A stretch of 8,091 bases of DNA. It comes from an uncultured Ruminococcus sp. Lineage in GTDB: Bacteria; Bacillota; Clostridia; Oscillospirales; Ruminococcaceae. The notes under the pieces were generated by a model that saw nothing but the letters and a program-made list of their open reading frames with translations, ran no database searches and was not told the DNA's origin. The position numbers and the translations under genes are program-made. Shown here piece by piece: positions 391 through 7,869 of this stretch; positions within the stretch are counted from its first letter, which is position 1; each line of letters begins with the position of its first letter. The DNA lies in the NCBI GenBank assembly GCA_946612185.1, contig CAMOEP010000083.1, positions 1 through 8,091 on the forward strand, written 5' to 3'.

Positions 391-419
391 TTGAAATACT
401 GCGCAGATAGTATTATAAT
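391..419 (+). promoter_or_regulatory. Promoter P2, proximal promoter of the operon
   Basis: TTGAAA (391-396), a 17-base spacer and a perfect TATAAT (414-419) form a strong sigma-A promoter. The predicted start is near base 426, giving a leader of about 135 bases before the ATG at 562. No gene or terminator intervenes, so it should drive the five-gene operon. The -10 box sits inside the palindrome at 410-421, which may allow repression or simply ease melting. Confidence 0.75.
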
Positions 420-561: not shown

Positions 562-1446
562 ATGAACAAAAGAAAAGACCAATGCGGCAGAAGGGGTGAA
601 CGCATTTTCAGTAATATATGTATAATCCCCAGTCTTGTGGGAGTTATGATATTCTTCCTTGTGCCTTTCGGGATAGTTATTTACTACTCCATGATCGACA
701 ACCCAATATCGCATAATTTCGTGGGACTGGACAACTACACTAAGCTTATGCACACCACCGCATTTACCAAAGCCGTAAGCCATACCGCAAGATTTACGCT
801 CATAGCCGTTCCGCTGTCATTGATAATATCCATGTGGCTGGCGGTGATACTTGAACGCAATATCAAGGGAAAAAGTGTTTGCCGCACGTTCTTCCTCAGC
901 CCGCTTATGGTGCCTACTGCTTCAATAGTGCTTGTATGGCAGGTGCTTTTCCACAACCACGGTACTATCAGCCAGATCATCGAGGCTTTCGGCGGTCACG
1001 GCGTTGACTGGCTGAAATCAGAACACTGTCAGGTGATAATAATACTCATGTTCCTGTGGAAGAACATAGGGTACAATATGATACTTTTCATGTCGGCGCT
1101 GGCTTCTGTGCCACGGGATATACTTGAAGTTGCGGAACTTGAAGGCGCTGGAAAGTTGTATCAGTTCTTCCATATCAAACTCAGATACCTGTCACCTACG
1201 ATACTTTTCGTGCTGATACTCTCCCTTATCAATTCATTCAAGATATTCCGTGAGGTATACCTGCTTACCGGCGAGTACCCCTACGGAAAGATGTATATGC
1301 TCCAGCACTTCATGAACAATACCTTTGAAAAGCTGGACTACCAGAAACTTTCTGCGGCGGCGGTACTTTTCTTTGCTGTTATGATAGTCGTTATCGCTGT
1401 TCTCCTGATAACAGAGAACCACTTCGGAAAGGACGTGGAAAACTGA
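562..1446 (+). CDS. Carbohydrate ABC transporter permease, MalF/UgpA type
   Basis: This is one of the two membrane subunits of a CUT1-family sugar importer; it forms half of the translocation path in the cytoplasmic membrane. The 294-residue product has a basic N-terminus and about six hydrophobic segments, near residues 21-42, 77-97, 111-131, 158-180, 212-232 and 263-284. The VGLDNYTKLM stretch (54-63) is typical of this subfamily. The cytoplasmic EAA loop lies at about 189-212, with E189, A191, G195, A196 and P212 in place; this loop docks on the ATPase. The usual Pro of its 'LP' pair is Arg208 here, a mild deviation. Length is normal for the family. It is the first gene after P1 and P2, and its stop overlaps the next start by one base, implying translational coupling to its partner permease. 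The substrate cannot be read from the sequence. Confidence 0.93.
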   Translation: MNKRKDQCGRRGERIFSNICIIPSLVGVMIFFLVPFGIVIYYSMIDNPISHNFVGLDNYTKLMHTTAFTKAVSHTARFTLIAVPLSLIISMWLAVILERNIKGKSVCRTFFLSPLMVPTASIVLVWQVLFHNHGTISQIIEAFGGHGVDWLKSEHCQVIIILMFLWKNIGYNMILFMSALASVPRDILEVAELEGAGKLYQFFHIKLRYLSPTILFVLILSLINSFKIFREVYLLTGEYPYGKMYMLQHFMNNTFEKLDYQKLSAAAVLFFAVMIVVIAVLLITENHFGKDVEN

Positions 1447-2339
1447 TGATGACACATAAGCAGAGACAGCATAACCTGGATATAGCGCTGACGGTACTTG
1501 TATTTTTTGCGGCATTTCTTTTCCTTATGCCAACGGTGCTGACCATAGCCAACAGCTTCATGACATCAACGGAGATATCCGCTAACTACGGCGCAATGTT
1601 CAGCAATATGACCGAGGACAAAAAGACGTTTATATCCGATAACGTAAACCTGAAATTCATTCCGGATAAGGTCACTTTCGAGCAGTACAAGTCGGTACTC
1701 CTGAAAAGCCCTGATTATCTGCTGAAATTCTGGAATTCTGTTATACTTACCGTTCCTATCACAGTATTCCAGCTTTTAGTGGCAGTATTCACCGCTTATG
1801 GCTTTTCAAGATATCCGGGCAAGATAAAGAACATCATCTTCTTCGCTTACATAATCCTTATGATAATGCCTTATCAGGTAACACTTGTTCCGAATTATCT
1901 GGTAGCAGATAAATTCGGTATACTGAATACACGCTGGGCAATTATCCTCCCCGGAATATTTTCCCCGTTCAGTATATTCCTGCTGACGAAGGTAATGAGG
2001 AGAATACCCATATCCTATGTGGAAGCCGCAAAACTGGACGGCGCTTCTGAATTCCAGATACTTACAAAGATATACCTCCCCCTATGCAAAGGCGCTATCG
2101 TTTCAATTGGTATGCTGGTATTCATCGACTACTGGAATATGGTGGAACAGCCGTTGGTACTTATCAAGGATACTTCCCTGCATCCGCTTTCGGTATTCCT
2201 GTCACAGATAAATACAGGTGACGTTGGTCTGGCGTTTGCTGTAGGGGTTGTGTATATGGTGCCTACGGTACTCATGTTCCTCTATGGCGAGGATTATCTG
2301 GTAGAGGGTATAACCTATTCCGGCGGCATCAAAGGCTGA
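1446..2339 (+). CDS. Carbohydrate ABC transporter permease, MalG/UgpE type
   Basis: This is the second membrane subunit of the sugar importer and pairs with the upstream permease. It is 297 residues long, with hydrophobic segments near 13-35, 98-119, 130-150, 164-181, 216-236 and 262-281. The EAA loop is a textbook copy at about 193-214 (E193, A194, A195, D198, G199, A200, L211, P212). The C-terminus VEGITYSGGIKG resembles the conserved VEGLTAGAVKG ending of MalG-type subunits. A sizeable extracytoplasmic stretch (about 36-97) follows the first helix, as is common in this family. The start ATG overlaps the previous TGA. A second ATG follows directly at 1449, so the first Met is uncertain. Only weak Shine-Dalgarno matches precede it (AAAGGA, 1428-1433), consistent with coupling to upstream translation. 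Confidence 0.93.
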   Translation: MMTHKQRQHNLDIALTVLVFFAAFLFLMPTVLTIANSFMTSTEISANYGAMFSNMTEDKKTFISDNVNLKFIPDKVTFEQYKSVLLKSPDYLLKFWNSVILTVPITVFQLLVAVFTAYGFSRYPGKIKNIIFFAYIILMIMPYQVTLVPNYLVADKFGILNTRWAIILPGIFSPFSIFLLTKVMRRIPISYVEAAKLDGASEFQILTKIYLPLCKGAIVSIGMLVFIDYWNMVEQPLVLIKDTSLHPLSVFLSQINTGDVGLAFAVGVVYMVPTVLMFLYGEDYLVEGITYSGGIKG

Positions 2340-2360
2340 CGAACAAAAGGAGTGTGCAAT

Positions 2361-4178
2361 ATGAACGAGACTTCATCAAATGAGATAAAAGAACAAAGTG
2401 AGATAAATATACCAACAGAGACAAGTGTACAGAACGAGGTAAAATTACCACGGGAACTGAAAACCGAGGAGACTTATGACCCAAGACACAAAAGAGAGGT
2501 AATCAAGAATATAATCATAGTATTCCTTGCGGTGCTTCTGGTGCTGACATTCTGCTCAAACACCATTATGAACCGCTCGCTGCCTGAGATAACCACCGAG
2601 CGCACCTCCTCCGGAAAGCTTACCGAGAGACTGCGTGGAAGCGGTCTTGTAATGTCCAACCAGACATACGAAGTTACTCTTACCGGCAATCATACCGTTG
2701 ATACCATTATGGTGAAAAACGGCAAGGAAGTCAAGAAGGACGATGTACTTTTCACAGTAGGCAAGGGCGAGAACGCCGAACTTACCACCGCTGAGGAAGC
2801 GCTCGCTGCTATGGAACTTGAATACCAGAAAGCCCTCCTTGCAATGCCGGCAGACTATAGCTCAGAGAATCAGGCTATCGCCAATGCAAGGGCTGATCTG
2901 CAAGCCGCTATAACCAAGCGTGACAACGCCGCTGCCAGTCAGGACGACCAGCAGGCTGCAAAGGACGCTTACAACAGCAACAAGTCCGAACTGAACTACT
3001 ATACCCGTGAGCAGGCTAAATTACAGGCTACTATATCCGCTATCGACAGCGATGAGTATTCCGGCGCTGCACCTGAGTATACAGGCGACCTGATAAGACT
3101 CAAAAGCGACTTCGAGAATGCTTCCGCTGACTACAACGCAGCTTTTGGACTGTACACCCAGCTTGTTTCCGGCGGAAACGACGAGGAAAGTTCCGGAGGC
3201 GCATCTCAGGATATGATAGACTCCGCAAAGGCTGATGCTGATGCAAAGGAGGAAGCCCGTGACGAGGCAAGAGATGCCTATGAGGACGCTAAGTACGATC
3301 TGAGAAGCTGGCTTATCTCCGAACTGAGTTCCGCTGAGGATAATGTTAATTACTATACCGACCTTGTAAATTCCTATGAGTCCTCCCAGACTACAGGCTT
3401 TTCTGACCTGGATATGCTGGAGGAGGACGTTAAGGCTAAACAGCGTACCCTTGATGACCTTATCACAGCACTCAACAAAACTAAAGCAAGTAACGACAAC
3501 GAAAGCAAAATATCAAATCTTGACCTTGAAGCCAAGAAGAAAGAGATCGAAAAGCAGAAATCAAAGATAGCTAAGATAAAGGAAACCTCCGATATCACCG
3601 AGGTAAAGTCAAAGTACAGCGGCGTGGTAAGTTCAGTAAATATCAAGCCCGGTGACGAGACTGTTCCGGATACGCCCCTTATCGAGATCGACCTTGCTGA
3701 CGAGGGATATACCGTTCAGGTAAGCGTTCCCTCCGACAAGGCAATGAAGGTAAAGAAGGGTACTGCTGCTGAGATAGTAAACAACTGGAACGGCAAGGCT
3801 GAGGCTGTCCTCACTGACATAAAGAATGATACTACTGCAAATTCCAGAAATAAGCTGCTTACCTTCTCCATTACCGGCGATGTTACCTCCGGTTCATTCC
3901 TTGACCTTTCCATTCCCTGCGGCGGCGGAAACTTTGATGCTATCGTTCCCAAAAGTGCTGTAAGACAGGACACTGACGGCTTCTTCGTCCTCACTGTCCG
4001 CTCAAAGAGTTCACCTCTTGGAAACCGCTACTATGCCGAGAAGGTTGCTGTTGAAGTGCTGGCTTCTGATGAAGTATCAAGCGCAGTTTCCGGCAATGTC
4101 ATGAACGGCGACTACGTTATCACCGCTTCAAGCAAGAGTATCGCTCCCGGCGACCAGGTACGCATCAAGGATAAATAA
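2361..4178 (+). CDS. Membrane-anchored HlyD/MacA-like adaptor protein
   Basis: The product resembles a membrane fusion (periplasmic adaptor) protein. It is 605 residues long when started at the ATG at 2361, which follows AAAGGAG (2346-2352); an upstream GTG at 2352 overlaps that site and is less likely. Order of parts: a hydrophilic, probably cytoplasmic tail of about 46 residues; one membrane helix (47-68); the first half of a lipoyl-like barrel-sandwich domain (about 84-133, with VKNGKEVKKDDVLF); a long, mostly helical, Ala/Glu/Lys-rich coiled-coil region (about 140-410) broken near 162-170, 229-241, 269-284 and 339-349; the second lipoyl half (about 414-445, YSGVVSSVNIKPGDE); and a beta-rich C-terminal part (449-605). 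Known relatives link a MacB- or HlyB-type transporter to further components. Here the gene follows two sugar permeases and precedes a MacB-like gene, with no ATPase. An extracytoplasmic scaffold role is inference. Confidence 0.85.
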   Translation: MNETSSNEIKEQSEINIPTETSVQNEVKLPRELKTEETYDPRHKREVIKNIIIVFLAVLLVLTFCSNTIMNRSLPEITTERTSSGKLTERLRGSGLVMSNQTYEVTLTGNHTVDTIMVKNGKEVKKDDVLFTVGKGENAELTTAEEALAAMELEYQKALLAMPADYSSENQAIANARADLQAAITKRDNAAASQDDQQAAKDAYNSNKSELNYYTREQAKLQATISAIDSDEYSGAAPEYTGDLIRLKSDFENASADYNAAFGLYTQLVSGGNDEESSGGASQDMIDSAKADADAKEEARDEARDAYEDAKYDLRSWLISELSSAEDNVNYYTDLVNSYESSQTTGFSDLDMLEEDVKAKQRTLDDLITALNKTKASNDNESKISNLDLEAKKKEIEKQKSKIAKIKETSDITEVKSKYSGVVSSVNIKPGDETVPDTPLIEIDLADEGYTVQVSVPSDKAMKVKKGTAAEIVNNWNGKAEAVLTDIKNDTTANSRNKLLTFSITGDVTSGSFLDLSIPCGGGNFDAIVPKSAVRQDTDGFFVLTVRSKSSPLGNRYYAEKVAVEVLASDEVSSAVSGNVMNGDYVITASSKSIAPGDQVRIKDK

Positions 4179-4187
4179 GGTGATGCC

Positions 4188-5363
4188 ATGAAACTGAAGA
4201 TAAAACTCAGGTACGCCGTTATCGCTGCGGTGAATACGGTATGCCTTGTTTCAGCCGGTATCATGTCGCTGGTGGGAAGTTCTATGGCAAAGAGCCAGTC
4301 GTATAATACTATTGCTGAGGAGTGGGACACTAAAGGGGGCTGTTCGCAGGTAAGCTGTTTTCTGGACAGCAATTCCGGGTTCAGTACCGATATGCTCGGC
4401 GCTGTCCGCAACGCTGAACTTGAAGCCCTTGGTAATGTGTCCGTAGCCCCGGAGGAGGGCAAGACCCTTGTACCTGATGCGTATAGCTGCCAGATAGGAC
4501 AGGTGAGCGCAAGGTGCGATACCTCCGGACGCTCAGAGGCTATTGTAACGGCTGTAGGCGGCGACTTCTTCCTTTTCCGTGACTTCCGGCTGCTCAGCGG
4601 CTCGTATTTCTCCGACAGCGACACTATGCAGGACGGCGCTGTTATCGACAAGGAACTTGCCTGGTCACTTTACGGCTCAGTAAACGTGGCTGGCATGAGT
4701 ATCTACTTAAACGACGTAAAACTCTACATCTCAGGTGTAATTGATAATCCCCGGACTAAACCGGAGAAAAAATGCGTGGGGGATACTCCACGGGCTTACA
4801 TCTCTTATACTATGGCTGCTGACCCACTTATTTCAGGAGATATAGGTCAGATGTCTCCGGACGGCGGCACATACGGGTTCAGGAATATCTCATGCTACGA
4901 ATGTATCATGCCCGACCCGGTGGAGAATTACGCTTACAATACCATAAAAAAATACTTTACAGAAGGATTCCCGGAGCATTGCGCAGTTGTCAGCAACTCC
5001 GACAGATTCACTCCCTCAAAGAGGGCAAAGGCTTTCAGGAAGCTTACCGGTTATGCAGTCCGCAGCGACAGCATAGCTTACCCCTGGTGGGAAAACGCAT
5101 CAAGGATAACGGAAATGAAACTCTCCATACTCTACCACTTCCGCAGGATAGTCCTCATACCCGTTATCATAACGCTGCTCTGGCTGCTTGTGATAGTATA
5201 CAAACTGGCAGTTAAGGGCAGAAGGAGACTTTTTGAGGCGATAGAAGATAAATATACACGCATCGCCTACAAAATACTACAGAGACAAAAACAAAAGAAA
5301 GATAATATACAAATTAAACCAAAAAAAGAAAAAGAAACACAAACAGTTACCAACGACAAATAA
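4188..5363 (+). CDS. MacB-like extracytoplasmic domain protein with two membrane segments
   Basis: This 391-residue protein has one N-terminal membrane helix (about 9-31), a large extracytoplasmic region (32-320), a second helix (321-342) and a basic cytoplasmic tail (343-391, Lys/Gln-rich). The segment at about 121-184 (LLSGSYFSDSD, then AVIDKELAWSLYG, then IYLNDVKLYISGVI) follows the pattern of the MacB periplasmic core domain. Typical MacB/FtsX-type permeases add two further helices after this second one, and MacB also has an ATPase domain; all are missing. The reading frame is intact and runs to a normal stop, so this looks like a stable reduced form, not a broken gene. The ectodomain has eight cysteines (52, 57, 101, 110, 196, 236, 239, 265), including CYEC. 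AAGGTGAT (4177-4184) precedes the ATG, 9 bases after the adaptor gene. It probably partners that adaptor, as MacB does MacA. Its function is unknown. Confidence 0.78.
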   Translation: MKLKIKLRYAVIAAVNTVCLVSAGIMSLVGSSMAKSQSYNTIAEEWDTKGGCSQVSCFLDSNSGFSTDMLGAVRNAELEALGNVSVAPEEGKTLVPDAYSCQIGQVSARCDTSGRSEAIVTAVGGDFFLFRDFRLLSGSYFSDSDTMQDGAVIDKELAWSLYGSVNVAGMSIYLNDVKLYISGVIDNPRTKPEKKCVGDTPRAYISYTMAADPLISGDIGQMSPDGGTYGFRNISCYECIMPDPVENYAYNTIKKYFTEGFPEHCAVVSNSDRFTPSKRAKAFRKLTGYAVRSDSIAYPWWENASRITEMKLSILYHFRRIVLIPVIITLLWLLVIVYKLAVKGRRRLFEAIEDKYTRIAYKILQRQKQKKDNIQIKPKKEKETQTVTNDK

Positions 5364-5367
5364 TTAT

Positions 5368-5372
5368 GGAGG
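5368..5372 (+). promoter_or_regulatory. Strong ribosome binding site of the binding-protein gene
   Basis: GGAGG lies seven bases before the ATG at 5380 and is the best Shine-Dalgarno match in the operon. It follows a notably A-rich, presumably unstructured stretch (about 5278-5350). Both features fit the usual need for more solute-binding protein than permease. Confidence 0.8.
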
Positions 5373-5379
5373 ATTATCT

Positions 5380-7812
5380 ATGAGAACCAATACTATCAAA
5401 AGAACTCTCGCCGGCGTATTCGCTGCGGCAATGCTCTGTTCCGCAGCTTCATGCTCATCAGGCGGCAATAACGGCAGCGGCGACGGCTCAAACGAAAATG
5501 GCAGCGGCAATTCCCCCAGCGCATCTAATGTATCCGACAAGACCATAACAAATGTTTACCGCTCTGTTGAAATGAATACTGATCTTCCTATGGAATATAT
5601 TTCAGCTATAACTCCACTGGGCGACAGCGGAAACTTTATTGTATGCGGCAGCGATACAAAGGGAAACAGCTATATATATACTGCTGATCCTGAGTTTTCT
5701 TCCTTTACAGAACTTGATCTCGGCGTAGAGTACCCGGAGAACTCCACACATAATATGAACTGCTGCGTACTCGGAAACGGCAATATCGCTGTACTTCTCC
5801 AGGTAGCTGACTACGGCGATTTCAAACTCCCCAACTATGATGACCCCGACTTCGACTATGATACATTTGACTTTGAAGCTATGCAGGAAGCTGCCAAGTA
5901 CTCAAACTACTTCATTATCCTCGACAGCACCGGCAGCGTTGTCAGCACAAATGAACCCACCGAACTTGAAGAATACACATATATGGACGGCACTATCGCT
6001 GTAAGCGCATTAGCTCCTATCGGTGAGGATAAGTGCATAGCAAACCTGTATACAGAAGCAGAGGAAATATACCTGGTAATCGACACGGACGGCAAGGTCA
6101 TTGAAAAGTTAGACCTTGAAAACGGAAACGGTCTGTATCAGAGCTGCATGGACTCCGAGCATAACCTGTGCTATGTTACATGGGAGGAGGCTGGTATGGC
6201 GATCAGGAAGCTGAGTGCGTCTGACTATAGTCAGCTTGATTCTATCAGCCTCAAGGACGTTGAAAACAATGGTATGTTAAATATAATAAAGGGCGACGGT
6301 GATTACGAATTCTACATGACAGGCAGTACATCTCTCTACGGCATCAAGGCTGACGGTACGGTAAATGAGGTCATTAACTGGATAGACTCCGATATCAACG
6401 GAAACTATATCAGCGCTGTTGCTTCACTGGGCAATGGTGAGTTCGTAACATACGAAAGAGACTGGAATACCAATGCAAGTTCACTCAACCGTCTGACAAA
6501 GCGTGATGCTTCTGAACTGGCTGATACCGAAGTCCTTACCCTTGCTGTAATGTACGCAGATTCTTCTATAACTTCTCAGGTAACTGATTTCAATAAGAAG
6601 AACGACAAGATCCGTGTAAAGATCAAGGACTACTCCAGCTACTATGAGTACGATGAGCAGAACGAAAAGACCGTCAATACTCCTGCAAAGCAGCTTAAAA
6701 TGGACATCGTTTCCGGCAATCGTCCTGATATGATATGCTGTTACGATATGGCAGTAATGAATAATCTGGCTTCCAAGGGTGCATTTGCTGACCTGAACCA
6801 GGTAATGAGCGAAAGCGGCACTATCAAGCAGGAGGACATTATGCCCAATGTGATAGATGCACTTGCCCTTGACGGAAAGCTGTACTACATCACTCCCTCT
6901 TTCAGCATAAATACCCTTGCCATCAAGTCAAAGAACTTCGACAAGGAGAACTGGACGCTTGATGACCTTATCGAAACCTACAAAAAAGCACCTGAAGGCA
7001 CTAAGCTGTTCAATGAGTCGAATTCAAAGGAAAGCGTATTCTACAACCTCTACTACAATATGACTTTCGTTGACGAGGTAAACGGCACTTGCAGCTTTGA
7101 TTCACCTGATTTTCTCAAGCTTCTGGAATTTGTTGATACATTCGACAAGGAAGCTGACGAACCCGACTGGGATAACGCTTCTCAGGAGGAGATGGACGCT
7201 TACTATACCGAACAGCAGGCAGCCTGCCGCAACGACAAGGCTCTCCTCAGCACGGTATACCTGGGCGATGCAAGAGAGTACGCAAGAGCTGCTCAGGGCG
7301 AATTTGGCGACAAGATAACTCTCGTTGGTTATCCCTCCGATAATGGTCAGGGCGCAAAGCTCAACTTCAATAGCTGCTACGCTATCACCGAGGAGTGCCA
7401 GCATAAGGAAGCTTGCTGGGAGTTCATAAGCAGCTTCTTCGACTACACAAACAGCGATAGCAAGATGTACAATGGTTTCCCGGTTCTCCAGAGCGAGTTT
7501 GATAATATCATGGATCAGGCTATGGATCGTCCCTTCTGGACTGACGAAAAGGGCGAGAAGCAGTACTACGACGATAGCTACTGGCTCAGCGATACAGAGC
7601 AGATAGATGTAAAGCCCCTCACTAAGGAGGAGCGTGACTTCGTTGCTGACTACATCAAGAATACTTCCAGCAGATCAGCATACTATAACGAGGACGTTTA
7701 TGAGATAGTTAACGAGGAGATAGAGGCTTTCTTTAATGGTGAGCGCAGCGCTCAGGAGACAGCCGACCTTATCCAGAACCGTGCATCTATCGTAATAAGC
7801 GAGCAGAACTAA
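5380..7812 (+). CDS. Lipoprotein: propeller-like domain fused to a sugar-type solute-binding domain
   Basis: This is the substrate-capture protein of the importer, anchored outside the membrane. It has 810 residues. A signal peptide ends in AASC, with Cys25 the likely lipidated residue; the Ser before it makes the lipobox slightly atypical. A Gly/Ser/Asn linker (26-50) follows. Residues 60-375 carry recurring short beta-type units (FIVCGSDTKGNSYIYT, YFIILDSTGSVV, IYLVIDTDGKVIEKLDL, SLYGIKADGTVNEVI), suggesting a beta-propeller; blade number is not certain. Residues 384-810 match family-1-type extracellular binding proteins: DIVSGNRPDMICCYD, KGAFADLNQVM, LDGKLYYITPSFSINTLA, GYPSDNGQGAKLNFNSCYAI, ACWEFISSFF and GFPVLQSEFDNIM. 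The usual family length is 400-550, so the N-terminal domain accounts for the excess. An acidic, aromatic patch lies at 144-166. It is the last gene before the terminator. The ligand is unknown; a carbohydrate is likely. Confidence 0.88.
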   Translation: MRTNTIKRTLAGVFAAAMLCSAASCSSGGNNGSGDGSNENGSGNSPSASNVSDKTITNVYRSVEMNTDLPMEYISAITPLGDSGNFIVCGSDTKGNSYIYTADPEFSSFTELDLGVEYPENSTHNMNCCVLGNGNIAVLLQVADYGDFKLPNYDDPDFDYDTFDFEAMQEAAKYSNYFIILDSTGSVVSTNEPTELEEYTYMDGTIAVSALAPIGEDKCIANLYTEAEEIYLVIDTDGKVIEKLDLENGNGLYQSCMDSEHNLCYVTWEEAGMAIRKLSASDYSQLDSISLKDVENNGMLNIIKGDGDYEFYMTGSTSLYGIKADGTVNEVINWIDSDINGNYISAVASLGNGEFVTYERDWNTNASSLNRLTKRDASELADTEVLTLAVMYADSSITSQVTDFNKKNDKIRVKIKDYSSYYEYDEQNEKTVNTPAKQLKMDIVSGNRPDMICCYDMAVMNNLASKGAFADLNQVMSESGTIKQEDIMPNVIDALALDGKLYYITPSFSINTLAIKSKNFDKENWTLDDLIETYKKAPEGTKLFNESNSKESVFYNLYYNMTFVDEVNGTCSFDSPDFLKLLEFVDTFDKEADEPDWDNASQEEMDAYYTEQQAACRNDKALLSTVYLGDAREYARAAQGEFGDKITLVGYPSDNGQGAKLNFNSCYAITEECQHKEACWEFISSFFDYTNSDSKMYNGFPVLQSEFDNIMDQAMDRPFWTDEKGEKQYYDDSYWLSDTEQIDVKPLTKEERDFVADYIKNTSSRSAYYNEDVYEIVNEEIEAFFNGERSAQETADLIQNRASIVISEQN

Positions 7813-7827
7813 CAAGGTCTAAATATA

Positions 7828-7869
7828 CCGTGGGGCATTTCCATATTGGAGATGCCTCACGGCTTTTTT
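7828..7869 (+). terminator. Intrinsic terminator of the operon
   Basis: Arms 7828-7842 and 7848-7862 form a 15-pair stem with two G-U pairs and a 5-base loop (7843-7847). After one C comes a run of six T (7864-7869). It begins 15 bases after the stop codon of the last gene. The T run lies only on the plus-strand side, so it is directed at the operon and is not clearly bidirectional. Confidence 0.95.

Follow-up and report, generated by a model that had tools for sequence, protein, structure and literature searches.

A MacA-like adaptor and a MacB-like protein without ATPase domain in the operon of a likely oligosaccharide importer of Ruminococcus

Gene content of the operon

The window analyzed here is the complete 8,091-base contig C83 from an uncultured Ruminococcus sp., the genome of which is incomplete (74%). 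Five successive open reading frames (ORFs) on the plus strand (562-7812) encode two permeases of the CUT1 type of ATP-binding cassette (ABC) importer, a MacA/HlyD-like adaptor, a MacB-like protein and a solute-binding lipoprotein (genes 1 to 5; Table 1). The adaptor and the MacB-like protein, a pair related to parts of an export pump, are nearly always present in the operon of this likely oligosaccharide importer, in Ruminococcus and in many other Bacillota.

The original prediction described a tight five-gene operon with a single terminator, and this was borne out: genes 1 and 2 overlap by 1 base (-1), the following spacings are 21, 9 and 16 bases, and an intrinsic terminator follows gene 5. 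The proposed protein families were likewise recovered by Pfam, with all matches above cut-offs (BPD_transp_1 for genes 1 and 2, 1.9e-17 and 3.9e-15; HlyD_3 for gene 3, 5.8e-7; MacB_PCD for gene 4, 1.3e-9; SBP_bac_1 for gene 5, 1.1e-11). The window encodes no ATPase.

Table 1. Features of the 8,091-base window.
Feature	Position	Strand	Details
Sigma-70-like promoter match, TTGAAA-17-TATAAT	391..419	+	candidate; consensus match only, 11/12
Gene 1, permease A	562..1446	+	CUT1/MalF-like transmembrane domain, 294 amino acids (aa); ATG start, GTG at 553 also possible
Gene 2, permease B	1446..2339	+	CUT1/MalG-like transmembrane domain, 297 aa
Gene 3, MacA/HlyD-like adaptor	2361..4178	+	605 aa; ATG after aaaggag, GTG at 2352 possible
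Gene 3 membrane helix and exit motif LTFCSNTIMN..LPEI	2502..2591	+	~residues 48-77; recognizable even in mini adaptors of 122-146 aa
Gene 3 insert between two lipoyl halves	2757..3590	+	~residues 133-410; Pfam lipoyl/HlyD boundaries
Gene 3 C-terminal membrane-proximal-type domain	3888..4175	+	SPLGNRY motif
Gene 4, MacB-like protein	4188..5363	+	391 aa; first membrane helix (TM1), core domain, stalk, second membrane helix (TM2), cytoplasmic tail; no ATPase
Gene 4 MacB-type core domain	4335..5057	+	~residues 50-290
Gene 4 final helix including TM2	5085..5354	+	residues 300-389; begins at conserved YPWWENASR block
Gene 5, solute-binding lipoprotein	5380..7812	+	810 aa; lipobox Cys25
Gene 5 N-terminal all-beta domain	5557..6501	+	residues 60-374, ~24 strands
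Gene 5 solute-binding domain	6529..7809	+	residues 384-810
Intrinsic terminator	7828..7862	+	hairpin of 16 pairs, then T-run

Conservation of the gene set

Gene 4 is present in 54 of the 59 other genomes of the genus, with one locus in each (the match in G059 is in two pieces). Permease B, the adaptor and gene 4 occur together in all 55 same-genus loci retrieved, which comprise these 54 and a second locus in the window's own genome, all located via gene 4. This second copy of the operon (L085, contig C246), with a gene 4 that is 75% identical, reflects either strain mixing or a paralogue, because the 54 other genomes that have gene 4 carry one locus each. Among the five genomes lacking gene 4, one has permease B at a contig end (G011); in the others, G013 (98% complete) and G029, G033 and G058 (73-81%), gene 4 and this permease B are both missing. 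As a control, 20 other CUT1 permease-B matches (5e-24 to 2e-36) in seven genus members had no gene 4 nearby. Five of these seven genomes have no gene 4 match at all, so only the 8 matches in G035 and G028 are informative. The nearest of the 8 lies 14.5 kb from gene 4, and no adaptor match was found within 15 kb of any of them, the nearest being that of the module itself.

Outside the genus, a permease-B profile matched 49 of 394 genomes of the order (at 1e-60), 45 of 391 of the class (1e-55) and 9 of 398 of the phylum (1e-60). These samples overlap in some genomes, and 5-6 first-look candidates were scored per genome, so that further copies may be missed. Gene neighborhoods were retrieved for every match of these searches apart from three in the class (G535, G733 and G645). 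Scanning GTDB contigs contributed 80 named loci, the best of 569 confirmed ones, which are biased to Lachnospiraceae, include Butyrivibrio proteoclasticus P6B7, B. hungatei NK4A153, Parablautia muri D42-62 and Sarcina sp. DSM 11001, and share one locus with the genome searches. Of 237 loci, two controls from the window's own genome (L087 and L088) do not have this permease, leaving 235, and in 12 of these the contig ends before gene 4 is reached.

In 214 of the 223 uncut permease-B loci (159 of 168 when same-genus loci are set aside), gene 4 is found on the same strand no more than 5 kb away. A recognized adaptor accompanies it in 213 of the 214; in the other, L195, the adaptor is at the contig start. 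The adaptor and MacB-like hidden Markov models (HMMs) were iterated on loci up to L216, so only loci from L225 onward count as out of sample in the tally. Permease-B matches split into a close subfamily (E <=1e-110) and a distant one. The expected co-occurrence of the adaptor and MacB-like genes with this permease subfamily holds throughout the close group, where gene 4 is present in 177/177 uncut loci (123/123 without same-genus loci, one of which, L086, was found first via gene 4 and later via permease B too; 8 more are cut). In the distant group gene 4 is present in 37 of 46 loci (36 of 45 without the genus). The nine distant loci without it (L158, L163, L164, L165, L166, L167, L172, L207 and L209) each have an adaptor or an adaptor remnant.

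Whole-genome loci bearing the module outside the genus number 83, in 47 genera and 24 families including the window's own. The idea that the operon is unique to one strain is therefore rejected by its occurrence in the genus, order, class and phylum searches. When only filtered ORFs were considered, 72/82 loci showed the strict succession of permease B, adaptor and MacB-like gene, the rest being contig ends, ORF-overlap artefacts or fusions; the tally above uses unfiltered ORFs. The set also keeps together when placed before the permeases (L170, L171 and L195).

The association was also recovered from the opposite direction. A profile of two-helix gene 4 proteins, run against the 394 genomes of the order with five candidates scored per genome, gave 35 matches at 1.8e-49 or better, followed by a gap to 2e-17. 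Permease B adjoins 29 of them, a permease-B fragment at a contig edge adjoins two (G000:C246 and G211), and in three (G327, G274 and G301) permease B lies at the end of another contig; the remaining match, a partial gene in G448, has no such permease.

We give very little credence to the explanation that the pair is an unrelated efflux remnant merely sharing a transcript. Co-transcription alone proves no shared function, and the lone partial gene 4 of G448 would suit a remnant. However, the set is kept across 24 families, also where it precedes the permeases, the MacB-like and binding proteins are fused in two loci (L260 and L269, below), and gene 4 and permease B are absent together from four genus members. 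The explanation was rejected on this conservation, fusion and co-absence.

The adaptor

Gene 3 encodes the lipoyl, barrel and membrane-proximal parts of a membrane fusion protein adaptor of the MacAB/YknXYZ kind. It also matches NCBIfam RND_mfp (1.8e-22), below the cut-off (79.7 vs 94.9 bits). Hydropathy of relatives indicates a single N-terminal membrane helix, and the insert between the lipoyl halves is expected to be an alpha-helical hairpin. The exit motif following the helix was found in 154 of 228 adaptor-HMM matches with a strict pattern and in 197 of 228 with a relaxed one; matches without the relaxed motif are slightly changed members and a few unrelated proteins (L062, L087, L261 and L265). 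Median adaptor length is 581 aa in the 163 of 200 loci where gene 4 has no more than one helix after its core, and 431 aa in the 37 with at least two. These hydropathy counts are rough, and L192, L237, L261, L272, L278 and L291 among the 37 belong to the close subfamily and are possible miscounts.

In the minimal systems L158, L164 and L207, a mini adaptor and a UgpC-like ATPase accompany the two permeases. Aligned to full adaptors, the mini adaptors retain the membrane helix, a looser exit motif and the last domain (the remnant in L158 falls under the HMM threshold and was recognized through its likeness to that of L164). Because just these parts are retained, we infer that the membrane anchor and the last domain form the docking surface of the adaptor. 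Locus L165 (9162-10649) encodes a 495 aa adaptor with a seemingly duplicated barrel/lipoyl part and no MacB-like partner.

The length of most adaptors raises the possibility of a wall-spanning anchor, in which the long hairpin would bring the importer or the binding protein toward or into the peptidoglycan. According to excerpts of the respective papers, a MacAB-like pump of S. pneumoniae was modelled to reach ~154 Å, about as far as the inner zone of the wall (PMC5768738), and peptidoglycan is bound by YknX (PMC5985334). However, some adaptors are short (219-433 aa) and the hairpin is absent altogether from the mini adaptors. Spanning a distance is thus not a function that all of them share, and we regard a wall anchor as unlikely.

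The MacB-like protein

The core of gene 4 resembles the MacB/YknZ fold and is a MacB-type core domain. The protein was initially described as a MacB-like ectodomain protein; the likeness to MacB stands, but it is not an ectodomain alone, since the structure model and the hydropathy of relatives place one membrane helix at each end, two in total. The second half of the MacB membrane domain is missing from the model, which thus lacks the four membrane helices of a MacB pump subunit. Hydropathy indicates four or more helices only in distant members (L147, L149 and L307). The membrane-proximal stalk residues P299, W301, E302 and R306 mark one of the best conserved blocks, and the cytoplasmic tail is variable in length and sequence. 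Relatives in public data are assigned to Ruminococcus sp. and R. flavefaciens and are labelled only "ABC transporter permease".

In two Lachnospiraceae assemblies, the MacB-like protein and the binding protein are fused in one open frame (L260, 10915-14151; L269, 10964-14245). The MacB-like part spans residues 2-356 in L260 and 6-349 in L269, and the binding protein residues 330-1077 and 332-1095, respectively. No further fusions between different genes of the set were identified among the loci scanned for them. Same-genus fusions of these two proteins, hinted at by open frames of 1199-1213 aa, were rejected, as the ORFs are separate there.

These features bear on whether the pair could be a sensor or regulator, in which the MacB-like core and the adaptor would detect substrate or the state of the wall and gate the permease accordingly, while feeding it no substrate. 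The conserved stalk block is in a place suited to gating, the mini adaptors retain only near-membrane parts, and gene 4 has kept a cytoplasmic tail. Yet that tail is variable, the MacB-like protein is fused to a binding protein and to no signalling domain, and a flanking gene family common to most loci was not found in the 55 same-genus loci. A regulatory role is therefore doubtful.

The permeases and their ATPase

Both permeases have the BPD_transp_1 domain and EAA-type loop of CUT1/type I importers (EVAELEGA in permease A, EAAKLDGA in permease B). We take these loops to dock the nucleotide-binding domains (NBDs). Exactly one OB_MalK-type ATPase per genome was identified in 8/8 same-genus genomes, on another contig or >300 kb away. 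Of 225 loci, 17 have a UgpC-like ATPase on the same strand no more than 3.1 kb away. Four loci from three genomes outside the class (L307-L310) have the order permease A, permease B, adaptor (388-403 aa), MacB-like protein (471-480 aa), ATPase (371-392 aa) and binding protein (459-498 aa). The ATPase of L307 is of the UgpC type (467.7 bits; cut-off 432) with OB_MalK and TOBE_2 domains. Family assignment was checked for L307, L158 and L207, and the ATPase of L207 (228 aa, 2.1 kb upstream) is below the UgpC cut-off, with 85 bits to UgpC vs 66 to the MacB type. We infer that an ATPase of the UgpC/MalK/MsmX type, encoded elsewhere in genomes of the genus and adjoining the operon in some relatives, drives this permease.

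The dedicated MacB-type ATPase, fused or adjacent, of MacAB/YknXYZ pumps is lacking. No stand-alone ATPase closer to the MacB type was identified within 3 kb on the same strand in the 225 loci; the ABC-2-like ATPases described next aside, the nearest, of 246 aa, is 3.4 kb upstream in L268. Close homologues of gene 4 thus adjoin sugar-type permeases and not a MacB-type ATPase, the neighborhood that would have counted against the original prediction. ABC-2-like ATPases of 301-306 aa occur ~3.0-3.1 kb upstream in Butyrivibrio-type loci (L179-L183, L227-L230, L235 and L238) and score ~40 bits to UgpC and MacB-type queries alike. Three ORFs of exporter size (567-614 aa) are within 3 kb, in L034, L162 and L164. 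The window's genome also encodes a canonical set of adaptor, ATPase and MacB-type permease together (L087), which provides an internal contrast.

A pair that is still a MacB-type pump, with either an unlinked MacB-type ATPase or the ATPase of the importer as its motor, would be consistent with the helix-rich distant members and with the canonical set in the same genome. However, gene 4 has only two helices, stand-alone MacB-type ATPases are missing from the 3-kb neighborhoods in which 17 UgpC types occur, and the canonical set has its own linked ATPase. We consider such a pump improbable, and the version with an unlinked ATPase is disfavored by the neighborhood survey.

The binding protein and its substrate

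The SBP_bac_1 match and the fold identify gene 5 as a family-1 solute-binding lipoprotein. Its lipobox cysteine (C25) is invariant across 38 sequences. The fold of the binding domain resembles CbpC/YesO, and the N-terminal all-beta domain is probably a beta-propeller. Predicted from family and fold resemblance only, the imported substrate is likely an oligosaccharide or other carbohydrate.

Gene 5 is downstream of gene 4 in 49/55 same-genus loci. Among the other six, L073, L080 and L081 stop at a contig edge and L074 has binding proteins upstream; in L034 and L038 a search of the loci found no binding protein. Two large binding protein genes, one on either side of the same importer, were observed in L177, L178, L240-L242 and L247-L251.

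Other features of the window

At gathering cut-offs, an Rfam search of the window gave no match. The first 26 bases (minus strand) resemble the 5' end of a tRNA-Gly gene, presumably truncated by the contig end, but ARAGORN reported no tRNA in the window. Contigs L033, L041, L043 and L045 from the same genus likewise start just upstream of the operon.

Proposed function

We predict, as the probable reading, that this CUT1 importer works with a motorless MacB-like protein and a MacA-like adaptor that serve as an outer-face platform or conduit positioning the binding protein. The MacB-like protein and the adaptor would come together on the extracytoplasmic side of the two permeases, with the adaptor docking on the permease through its membrane anchor and last domain and possibly forming a MacA-like oligomer. 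The MacB-like core may hold the binding protein or its propeller-like domain, and the platform would hand the cargo of the binding protein to the importer. Energy would come from the importer ATPase alone, and the part derived from MacAB would thus be passive. The platform may do for Gram-positive importers what the P2 loop of MalF does for the maltose-binding protein. The central claim of the original prediction, that the pair belongs to the importer as an accessory module, is supported by the retention of gene 4 beside permease B in 214 of 223 loci and by the reverse search, in which 31 of 35 gene 4 matches adjoin this permease or a fragment of it.

More tentatively, and short of an even chance in our estimate, the system could represent a new class of ABC importer, in which an export machine of the MacAB type, having lost its motor, was incorporated into a sugar importer and works inward. 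An adaptor ring and the MacB-like core would here form an extracytoplasmic capture unit. It would receive the cargo of a propeller-bearing binding protein tethered in the wall and pass it to the permease, with all energy supplied by the shared MalK-type ATPase.

Several observations weigh against a platform that feeds the importer. The MacB-like protein is not essential to every such importer, given the nine distant systems without it. G448 (100% complete) has a partial gene 4 (C46:71640-72287) and no such permease, possibly a decayed operon. The control with other CUT1 permeases is small (8 informative of 20 matches). A correlation among the distances of permease B, the adaptor and the MacB-like protein (Spearman 0.88-0.91, 147 loci) favors the platform, but joint inheritance alone would be expected to yield it. 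The fused proteins of L260 and L269 retain the signal segment and lipobox of the binding protein mid-protein; this internal segment fits the cytoplasmic end of the MacB-like part, yet also permits cleavage. In L228 (3997-7051) and other Butyrivibrio-type loci, genes for a 301 aa ABC ATPase (in L228 with best NCBIfam likeness to PmtA/DrrA, below cut-off) and a 725 aa DUF6449 protein immediately precede permease A and share its orientation. Finally, no flanking family is common to most same-genus loci, the widest occurring in 16/55, where many loci are contig-cut and flanks unannotated, and the flanks give no clue to the substrate.

Importers and MacAB-like machines are treated as separate, and this operon joins both. 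As a widespread operon of rumen and gut bacteria (Ruminococcus, Butyrivibrio and other Lachnospiraceae), it would add near-constant subunits to a textbook transporter and would account for genes now labelled merely as ABC transporter permeases. It would also open to experiment the question of how binding proteins are recruited by Gram-positive importers that have no loop like P2 of MalF. A MacA/MacB-like annotation in these genomes need not imply efflux.

Comparison with known systems

A search of the open-access literature, with subscription journals and preprints outside its scope, found no description of an importer combined with a MacAB-like pair. Like CUT1/type I importers, the operon has two transmembrane domains (TMDs) with EAA loops, a family-1 binding lipoprotein and a UgpC/MalK ATPase adjoining or elsewhere in the genome. 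Type I sugar importers with a multitask MsmX/UgpC/MalK ATPase are described, in the excerpt of PMC7658222 available, as TMDs, NBDs and a binding protein; the operon differs in adding a near-constant MacA-like adaptor and MacB-like protein. The available part of PMC10094684 names no adaptor or MacB-like parts for importers.

The Gram-positive MacAB-like pumps YknXYZ of B. subtilis and Spr0693-0695 of S. pneumoniae each come with a dedicated ATPase, and a role in export or protection is discussed for them (excerpts of PMC5985334 and PMC5768738). In contrast, the operon has no dedicated ATPase and encodes a sugar-type permease pair and a binding protein, and gene 4 of the window has two membrane helices where the MacB subunits of these pumps have four. 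Unlike MacB and other type VII ABC transporters (LolCDE, HrtBA and YtrEF), gene 4 lacks the ATPase domain and TM3-TM4. Gene 5, for its part, differs from CbpC of C. thermocellum and YesO of B. subtilis in carrying an extra N-terminal all-beta domain of ~315 residues.

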